From Eubacteriales bacterium (GTDB lineage: Bacteria; Bacillota; Clostridia; Oscillospirales; Oscillospiraceae), in NCBI GenBank assembly GCA_030536515.1, contig JAUNPV010000008.1, positions 57,099-121,098 of the forward strand: 64,000 nt of DNA, read 5' to 3'. The notes under the pieces were generated by a model. That model did no database searches. It saw nothing but the letters and a program-made list of their open reading frames with translations, and was not told where the DNA came from. This document shows, in pieces, positions 44,865 to 45,684 of the stretch (position 1 is the stretch's first letter; each line of letters opens with the position of its first letter). A program made the translations under genes and the position numbers.

Positions 44865-45140
44865 TAAAATAAAAGCACCCTTGACAGGACACAGACACAC
44901 TGTCTCCTGTCAAGGGTGCATTCCAAACAACGCACGGTTCCACCTTGATTTTTCACTCGTCGGATTCCAACAAATCCTATTCTTTAACGCAGAAATACGG
45001 CAACGCTTACTGCGGCTTCGGCATTGCAGCTCAGGAACGGTTTTCCCCTCTGCCTCCCATAAGGAACTTACAGCAAACGTTCCCCTCTCTGAATGTTCCG
45101 CAGAAGCTACTCTTTTCCCTCATAGCCTTCTTTGTATATT
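44865..45140 (-). promoter_or_regulatory. T-box leader controlling the methyltransferase gene
   Basis: On the minus strand the leader has the T-box core AGGTGGAACCGTGCG (44931-44945), a stem-I-like region with GAGTAG, CAGAGAGGGGAAC and GCTGTAAG, and then a terminator: GCACCCTTGACAGG/CCTGTCAAGGGTGC (44875-44919) followed by TTTTATTTTAC. T-box RNAs sense uncharged tRNA. I could not assign the specifier codon with confidence; the 3' side of stem I (about 45035-45062) should contain it. Confidence 0.85.
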
Positions 45141-45175: not shown

Positions 45176-45224
45176 TTCAGTGATAGGGATTATCAGCGGC
45201 TGGATATTGCTCACGGTTGGTTTC

Positions 45225-45401
45225 GTGAAATATTTTGCTTGCCGCAAAATGTGAAATATCAGCTTGCGCTGATGTGAAATATTCTGCTTACGCAGAATGT
45301 GAAATGAAATAAATCCACCCACGCCCGCAGGCATTTCACGCTGCACAGCAGCATTTCACGTGCGAAGCACATTTCACAAATCCCGAAGGGATTTATTTCA
45401 C
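45225..45401. repeat. hairpin ladder with inverted GTGAAAT/ATTTCAC rungs
   Basis: GTGAAAT occurs at 45225, 45251, 45274 and 45299; its complement ATTTCAC at 45333, 45353, 45371 and 45395. The gaps are each exactly one hairpin: ATTTTGC/GCAAAAT, ATCAGC/GCTGAT and ATTCTGC/GCAGAAT on the left, GCTGC/GCAGC, GTGC/GCAC and AAATCCC/GGGATTT on the right. Pairing the words in nested order gives four rungs joined by three four-way junctions. No coding sequence is credible here. It lies between the T-box promoter and tRNA-Gln. Confidence 0.85.
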
Positions 45402-45402
45402 T

Positions 45403-45632
45403 GAATCCCTCATCCTCTGCCGGCGAAAGCGCAGAGGATGAGGGATTCGATTGCCGAATTTCCCTTCCGTGGGACGGGAAATTCGTAAGGTGGTCGGCCA
45501 GTTTTTGAACTGGCCTCCCCCAACCTGCCACTGGCAGGTCGGATTTTATCGGTTCGAATCCCTCATCCTCTGCCATAAAAAACGCCGCCCGGTCGGGCGG
45601 CGTTTTTTATGGCAGAGGATGAGGGATTCGAA
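45403..45632. repeat. alternating inverted copies of the tRNA-Gln 3' end with an enclosed cloverleaf
   Basis: The sequence GAATCCCTCATCCTCTGC (T-arm/acceptor end of tRNA-Gln) occurs at 45403 (plus), 45431 (as complement), 45556 (plus) and, inside the true tRNA, at 45613-45630 (complement). Copies 45431-45450 and 45554-45573 pair over 20 bp and enclose three hairpins: CGAATTTCCC/GGGAAATTCG, GGCCAGTT/AACTGGCC and ACCTGCC/GGCAGGT. 45553-45590 and 45595-45632 form a perfect 38-bp inverted repeat that includes the tRNA terminator. Confidence 0.85.
45575..45610 (-). terminator. terminator of tRNA-Gln
   Basis: AAAAAACGCCGCCC pairs with GGGCGGCGTTTTTT around a GGTC loop, directly at the tRNA 3' end on the minus strand. 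It is symmetrical and also works on the plus strand. Confidence 0.92.
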
Positions 45633-45684
45633 CCCCCGCAAACGGAGTCAGAGTCCGGTGTGCTACCGTTACACAAATCCTCTA
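45610..45684 (-). tRNA. tRNA-Gln (anticodon CTG)
   Basis: A 75-nt tRNA including an encoded CCA. Read on the minus strand: acceptor TAGAGGA with TCCTCTG, D-arm with GTGTAACGGTAGCAC, anticodon arm CCGGACT-CTG-ACTCCG with central CTG (reads CAG), T-arm GCGGGGGTTCGAATCCC. It has its own promoter and terminator. It is the only intact tRNA in the window. Confidence 0.95.

Follow-up and report, generated by a model that had tools for sequence, protein, structure and literature searches.

A hairpin ladder behind a tRNA-Gln gene, probably a small selfish element in a copy without a gene, linked to a four-helix-bundle protein family

What is the stretch of 177 bases behind a tRNA-Gln gene in which one seven-letter word occurs four times and is then answered by four copies of its complement? 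In the window (the whole stretch of DNA analysed here, 64 kb in length) the word GTGAAAT is found 12 times on the two strands together, compared with a mean of 7.1 in shuffled sequence, and eight of these 12 words, as GTGAAAT or ATTTCAC, lie within positions 45225-45401 in strict order. The initial annotation, made from the sequence alone, had described four GTGAAAT words followed by four ATTTCAC words with a single hairpin in each gap. This is what we find: the eight rungs lie at the positions given in Table 1, and each of the six gaps between them holds one hairpin, in addition to a centre of 27 nt. This centre had been described as looking single-stranded, but it contains a short hairpin as well as a run of 12 nt that is the exact reverse complement of part of the outer arm. 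Because of this complementarity, a competing fold exists.

Table 1. Positions of the ladder, its parts and its neighbours in the window.
Feature	Position	Strand	Remarks
Hairpin-ladder element	45225..45401	- (own 5' to 3', tRNA-Gln side first)	From sequence and folding; direction from copies behind tRNA terminators
Rung GTGAAAT 1	45225..45231	+	Pairs with 45395-45401
Rung GTGAAAT 2	45251..45257	+	Pairs with 45371-45377
Rung GTGAAAT 3	45274..45280	+	Pairs with 45353-45359
Rung GTGAAAT 4	45299..45305	+	Pairs with 45333-45339
Centre	45306..45332	n/a	Short hairpin; stretch 45305-45316 complementary to outer arm 45389-45400
Four ATTTCAC rungs and three hairpins	45333..45401	+	Hairpins unlike in sequence (45340-45352, 45360-45370, 45378-45394)
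Gut-1 (RF01706) match, 5' half of element	45328..45403	-	74.3 bits (gathering score 50)
Gut-1 (RF01706) match, 3' half of element	45223..45310	+	48.3 bits, just below gathering score 50
Hairpin with 18-bp perfect arms, built from tRNA-Gln 3' end	45403..45448		Replaces the terminator hairpin that precedes many other copies
41-bp perfect palindrome	45551..45634		tRNA-Gln terminator and inverted copy of tRNA 3' end
tRNA-Gln (CTG)	45610..45683	-	Structured-RNA gene upstream of ladder

Both strands were folded. For positions 45200-45420 of the plus strand the minimum free energy is -70.8 kcal/mol with RNA parameters (z = -4.15) and -48.2 kcal/mol with DNA parameters (z = -6.25), and in each case none of 200 shuffled sequences folded as well; the DNA fold contains all four rungs, and the RNA fold lacks the outermost one. 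On the minus strand, which is the direction of the neighbouring tRNA, the minimum-energy fold has all four rungs with either set of parameters, in agreement with the nested pairing proposed in the initial annotation. The energy of this strand as RNA is -69.7 kcal/mol, compared with -56.9 kcal/mol when only local pairs are allowed (span of at most 40), and as DNA it is -47.5 compared with -33.1 kcal/mol. The rungs of the window ladder therefore gain about 13-14 kcal/mol over the local hairpins alone, and the long-range pairing is favoured in this copy. Across a set of 44 ladders described below, each rung is present in the minimum-energy fold of 22-25 of the 44 with DNA parameters and of 4-18 with RNA parameters. 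A chance origin of the ladder was rejected on the fold z-scores against shuffles together with the conservation seen in these 44 sequences.

It had been stated that no named class has this plan. In fact each half of the ladder separately resembles the Rfam family Gut-1 (RF01706), the gathering score of 50 being passed by the half on the minus strand and narrowly missed by the half on the plus strand, but Gut-1 describes neither the ladder nor the facing pair. Since the two halves match on opposite strands, the Gut-1 model is one half of a nearly palindromic element. What Gut-1 shares with the ladder halves is the repeated UGAAAU words with three hairpins between them. In Rfam, however, it is a single half and a stand-alone sRNA, whereas the ladder consists of two facing halves, is present in many copies and is linked to tRNA terminators and to a protein gene. 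When 20 relatives were scanned with cmscan at the gathering scores, tRNA and Gut-1 were the only Rfam families found. In the accessible part of a 2010 paper (PMC2864571), Gut-1 is entered under "Human gut only", is not classed as cis-regulatory and is considered most likely a noncoding RNA; in contrast, about half of the 80 listed loci (of 94) from the named genomes considered below come from ruminant-host records. That paper was the only one mentioning RF01706 or Gut-1 that our literature search returned.

The element is multi-copy. The source genome (2.63 Mb) contains 31 Gut-1 matches, of which 28 form 14 facing pairs, two are halves that stand alone and the last is weak, with 23 bits. Among 61 genomes of the genus, including the source, the number per genome ranges from 0 to 30, as taken from a per-genome table made with stricter filters, and 31 of the 61 have any. 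These data bear on the reading under which Gut-1 is annotated, namely that of a structured noncoding RNA, transcribed by read-through from the tRNA, that might for example bind the four-helix-bundle protein described below or shape 3' ends. The cataloguing of Gut-1 as an sRNA by Rfam, the strong RNA folding, the agreement in direction between ladder and tRNA, and the pairing of outer arm and centre, which would provide a second RNA fold, are all consistent with such an RNA, whereas the facing of Gut-1 pairs on opposite strands and a copy number that swings from 0 to 30 are not what it would lead one to expect.

Which features of the ladder are kept from copy to copy? The 44 ladders compared here represent all gathered loci, with identical ones counted once, nearly exact rungs required and all eight rungs present. 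At the six hairpin positions they have 17, 29, 22, 36, 36 and 33 distinct sequences, and yet at least 4 bp can form in 44, 39, 41, 44, 44 and 38 of the 44, compared with 4-9% of shuffles. The side hairpins are thus kept despite the change in sequence, and for them the earlier proposal that structure rather than sequence is conserved is borne out. The order of the words and their pairing are likewise present in the homologues, as seen in these 44 ladders, in the families of rung words and in the matches between outer arm and centre. The rung word, which had been called constant, is so inside a sub-family but differs between sub-families, its complement changing on the other side. Upstream of the PF05635 genes discussed below, 14 different rung words were found, including GTGAAA, ATGAAA, GTGATG, ATGAAT, TGATAT, CGATAT, GTGAAG, AGTGAT, ATGATA, ATGATG, AGCTAA and TCGATA.

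With the rungs blanked, the longest exact match between outer arm and centre averages 7.5 nt within a copy and 4.9 nt between copies with other words. Matches of at least 8 nt occur in 7 of 19 own combinations compared with 8 of 322 mismatched ones, one of the seven (L114, the longest) being a local palindrome, and another 7 of the 19 own matches are merely 5-6 nt long, which is the level expected by chance. Among the GTGAAAT-type ladders taken alone, the matches are as good between copies as within them, and the arms of these ladders share sequence.

The hairpin loops provide information on the nature of the folded molecule. Loops of the types c(GNA)g and c(GNNA)g are exceptionally stable in DNA. 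Read on one strand, they close 67 of the 105 distinct hairpins in the 3' half but none of the 68 in the 5' half; read on the other strand, they are found in 40 of the 68, which then form the 3' half, and in 0 of the remaining 105. An earlier remark on the GAA loops of the window copy fits this pattern, in which such loops occupy the 3' half of either strand and never the 5' half. This mirror symmetry points to DNA or to the use of both strands. The loop types would thus favour one suggestion of the initial annotation, a folded single-stranded DNA, as far as can be judged from sequence. Another of its suggestions, repeated template switching as the sole cause, is not supported, since dozens of copies at unrelated sites share the plan. 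For the noncoding RNA considered above, the mirrored loops, which favour neither strand, are a further difficulty, as is the position of the element behind terminators and ahead of what appears by eye to be the following gene's own promoter. On balance we regard such an RNA as unlikely.

The ladders have a site preference. Leaving the weak match aside, a called tRNA gene lies upstream of the ladder at 10 of the 14 loci fetched from the source genome (Leu, Leu, Gln, Arg, Gly, Cys, Lys, Gly, Thr and Gln), and two further loci lie, by reading, behind an apparent tRNA 3' end; at four of the 14 a called tRNA is absent, which speaks against the tRNA-site rule. One of these four, L020 (contig C38), has its ladder about 0.7 kb behind a reverse transcriptase match. 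In this genome most ladders begin immediately after a terminator hairpin and its T-run. Named genomes were scanned with a junction pattern, which yielded 94 stretches; 80 of them are listed (L164-L243; 81 matches counted), and these 80 derive from uncultured Oscillospiraceae, Ruminococcaceae, Clostridia, Clostridiales, Clostridiaceae, Eubacteriales and Bacillota. Among the matches listed, a same-strand tRNA gene was found upstream in 52 of the 76 that could be tested, counts that are not independent, several matches coming from the same genome. In 51 of these 52 listed matches the tRNA ends 31-44 nt before the end of TTTTCA, and 16 kinds of tRNA are represented. Since the junction pattern required TTTT, the T-run itself is no evidence here; the tRNA is.

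The tRNA-Cys locus permits a comparison of filled and empty sites. In the 20 best-matching genomes of the genus, inspected by eye, a ladder is present in eight (right behind the terminator in seven, further away in one) and none is present in 12, and the ladders at this one locus belong to different word families. The terminators of filled and empty sites are sometimes alike (L077 and L089, by eye). These observations are relevant to the idea that the ladder is a host feature under selection, which would extend the terminators of tRNA operons, insulate these operons, or serve the four-helix-bundle gene introduced below as an operator. In favour of this idea, several ladders do lie, by eye, between a tRNA terminator and the next promoter, and the hairpins are conserved. 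With 12 of the 20 tRNA-Cys loci lacking a ladder, with word families that differ where one is present, and with no Gut-1 match in 30 of the 61 genomes of the genus, a host function of this kind appears improbable.

Other structures were noticed in the vicinity of these tRNA genes. A second structured repeat, recognized by eye, occupies positions 45403-45634 of the window and recurs at L011 and L012 and at L078, L081, L082 and L086. It carries copies of the adjoining tRNA's 3' end (tRNA-Gln, tRNA-Arg or tRNA-Cys), some inverted and some direct, arranged around hairpins like AATTTCCC..GGGAAATT, and it may be another tRNA-linked element. Behind tRNA-Cys there are also elements with simple arms (L079, L085, L087, L090, L118 and L119), in which, by eye, the centre complements the 5' arm of the terminator including the CCA end of the tRNA, and the order of parts is as in the ladder. 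Just past the window ladder, at 44909-45132 on the minus strand, is a T-box leader (RF00230, 103.2 bits).

Do the ladders move? Presence and absence at a single site were found in two genomes with similar flanks (88% over 1.18 kb and 90% over 0.37 kb). A unit of 258 nt, consisting of a terminator-like hairpin, a ladder and about 12 nt, lies directly behind a four-helix-bundle gene in G128 and is absent from G108 at one junction, which is fixed within a few bases. The difference could be due to an insertion or to a precise loss, both of which fit. In G061, which belongs to a different genus, nine copies of a related ladder were aligned and have sharp ends and unrelated flanks; two shorter matches (the second copy of L037, and L040) were left out of this alignment. 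For ten copies in this genome the flanks pair across the element, with a value of 11.45 compared with 6.78 for mismatched flanks, and three of the ten exceed the best mismatched value of 11.5. This pairing suggests that the G061 copies may sit in the loops of terminator hairpins, and together with the filled and empty site it suggests that the element may be mobile. No target-site duplication was seen by eye at the loci of the source genome, in the G108/G128 pair or at the G061 copies. For L129, no empty site was obtained in G126 and four other genomes, and a joint flank search over the ladders returned filled neighbours and tandem copies. L129 ends in a stretch of about 120-150 bp that is found again on many contigs of G131 and G129, frequently at the contig ends. 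As to the upstream end of the element, the tRNA-Cys sites disagree with the G108/G128 pair, in which the hairpin came with the ladder.

A candidate partner is provided by the neighbouring genes. The source genome has a single match to PF05635. Two ladders stand in tandem ahead of it, and its start lies 108 bp beyond the second; the window copy has no PF05635 gene beside it, this sole match adjoining another ladder. The encoded protein scores 95 bits against TIGR02436 (cut-off 24) and 83.4 bits against PF05635 (cut-off 33.8), exceeding both curated cut-offs, and it matches the structure 2rld_A in the PDB with E = 3.6e-20. Among 46 genomes of the genus, the source included, PF05635 was detected in all 23 with Gut-1 (below the cut-off in G130) and in 7 of the 23 without it (23/0/7/16; Fisher p = 5e-7, a test that ignores kinship).

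The association was also examined at the level of individual loci. From the 46 genomes 68 PF05635 matches were fetched, with upstream sequence for 65 and downstream sequence for 67, and a locus was scored as positive if the 380 nt upstream held three or more copies of a 6-letter word and, after them, three or more copies of its complement. By this test 21 of 65 loci were positive (by eye, 19 ladders with side hairpins and two simple arms), compared with 1 of 67 downstream, which proved to be another ladder (L153), and with 0 of 65 for dinucleotide shuffles, ten each; the remaining 44 of the 65 testable loci were negative. A same-strand tRNA gene lies no more than 700 nt upstream of the PF05635 gene in 30 of the 68 cases, and in many gene-bearing copies -35 and -10 boxes can be discerned by eye after the last rung. 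In the named genomes, among the matches listed, 10 of 65 have a four-helix-bundle gene on the same strand that begins 200-241 nt past the junction, compared with 1 hit in 69 upstream controls; at least two of these named loci, L223 and L241, are the same places as L117 and L138, already counted in the 46-genome set.

The type of element and the rung word follow the tree of the proteins. This tree was made by a quick method, with no bootstrap, from 53 of the 68 proteins, 15 short or stop-containing ones having been dropped. One side of it comprises 22 rows, 21 of which were assigned neither a ladder nor simple arms, and those inspected lie in operons between palindromes of short words. On the other side are 31 rows: ladder proteins account for 20 of them, 10 with simple arms of the TTCACT type form a fully supported clade, and one is of another kind. 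With the labels "ladder" and "simple arms" and the rung words assigned by hand, TGATAT and ATGATA being treated as one, the type of element changes four times over the 53 proteins, compared with a mean of 24 when shuffled, and the rung word changes nine times over the 20 rows, which is the least possible, compared with a shuffled mean of 14.1. Gene and ladder adjoin each other, so that shared descent suffices to explain the agreement of word and tree, and recognition of the word by the protein is not proven by it.

Some members of the family occur in other settings. L096, L099, L102, L105 and L106 belong to the other PF05635 clade; they are operon genes flanked by inverted arms that consist of short repeated words, at a site that, from the flanking frames, we take to be the one between purH and purD. 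A scan of viral contigs for the four-helix-bundle protein gave one relative, L264 (IMGVR_UViG_3300031555_007195), which has 68% identity and stands on a contig filed as viral.

Could the element be moved by better known machinery? Closest in function are the REP/BIME sequences with their transposase, TnpA-REP (RAYT), in which hairpin units form facing pairs and many copies are gene-less while few bear the gene. The ladder resembles these in its facing pairs of hairpin units and in the predominance of gene-less over gene-bearing copies, and differs in that its partner is a four-helix bundle. A Y1/HUH transposase as the partner was rejected, PF01797 (Y1_Tnp) having 0 matches at E <= 0.001 in the source genome, a result that leaves room for a transposase acting from elsewhere. 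It might still be supposed that an ordinary transposase moves the ladder as a passive repeat of the MITE or REP kind, with the protein gene as its cargo or a frequent neighbour. A small, multi-copy and hairpin-rich sequence would answer to that description, but the lack of any match to PF01797, the sole transposase family searched, and the links of the ladder to the gene and to the protein tree leave little probability for it.

The fold of the protein raises a further alternative. The Avd protein of diversity-generating retroelements, likewise a four-helix bundle, has five-fold symmetry and is described as a ring of five, and matches to reverse transcriptase are present in the source genome, so that one may imagine the ladder-linked protein acting like Avd while a reverse transcriptase copies ladder RNA. 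PF00078 was found, however, in 11 of 23 genomes with Gut-1 and in 13 of 23 without (Fisher p = 0.77), and a reverse transcriptase partner was rejected for this absence of association. The ladders differ from Avd systems in having no such link across the 46 genomes, and retro-mobility of this kind seems very improbable to us. To our knowledge, the four-helix-bundle partner has no catalytic site.

TIGR02436 and PF05635 describe the family of proteins (S23/IVP) encoded by the intervening sequences of 23S rRNA. In the part of a paper on Coxiella that was available (PMC4990558), this family is said to be without known function, and a relative from Xanthomonas is cited as a ring of five four-helix bundles. 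With the intervening sequences as that part describes them, the ladders share the protein family, complementary arms and probably a selfish character. They differ in their host site, which is a terminator, mostly of tRNA genes, and not 23S rRNA; the window copy, for one, lies behind tRNA-Gln and not in a 23S rRNA helix. They differ also in that the arms are split into repeated rungs with side hairpins, and in that the gene stands behind the folded part, whereas in intervening sequences it is inside. The intervening sequences lie in helices of the rRNA (PMC4990558), much as the G061 ladders appear to lie in the loops of terminator hairpins. Our literature search found no paper naming TIGR02436, and nothing it listed on mobility, inverted repeats or intervening sequences in connection with four-helix-bundle proteins, or on small repeats at tRNA terminators, describes the link reported here. 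Gut-1 and the intervening sequences are known separately, and their union in one class of element was not found in the literature searched.

Considering these results together, we think it probable that the window ladder belongs to a small selfish element, of which it is a copy without the gene, and that this element works with the four-helix-bundle protein in trans. Such an element would spread in uncultured Oscillospiraceae and other Clostridia by settling behind hairpins, mostly the terminators of tRNA genes, and its gene-bearing form would carry the PF05635/TIGR02436 gene directly behind the ladder. Like the relative of known structure, the protein is probably a ring of five; it would bind the repeated rungs and hairpins of a folded single strand, more likely of DNA in view of the loop types, and this binding would cause or guide copying to new hairpin sites, including that of gene-less copies such as the one in the window. 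That a ring should meet a row of identical rungs is an appealing idea, which we offer as a model. More tentatively, and with the balance of probability against it at present, the ladders may represent a class of elements that possess no transposase, recombinase or reverse transcriptase of their own, in which a ring protein reads the ladder of rungs and places the single strand in or behind terminator hairpins; the 23S rRNA intervening sequences would then be one branch of this class and mobility the function of S23/IVP.

These findings carry a caution for the annotation of RNA families, in that the RNA which a covariance model describes as independent can be one half of a palindromic element of DNA. 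Gut-1 has so far had no context beyond its listing. Tying it to S23/IVP gives both a testable meaning, with a nucleic acid partner, a rung word that can be swapped and a relative of solved structure. If it is true that the protein moves the ladders, bacteria would possess a means of moving DNA that resembles none of the transposases, recombinases and retroelements known so far.
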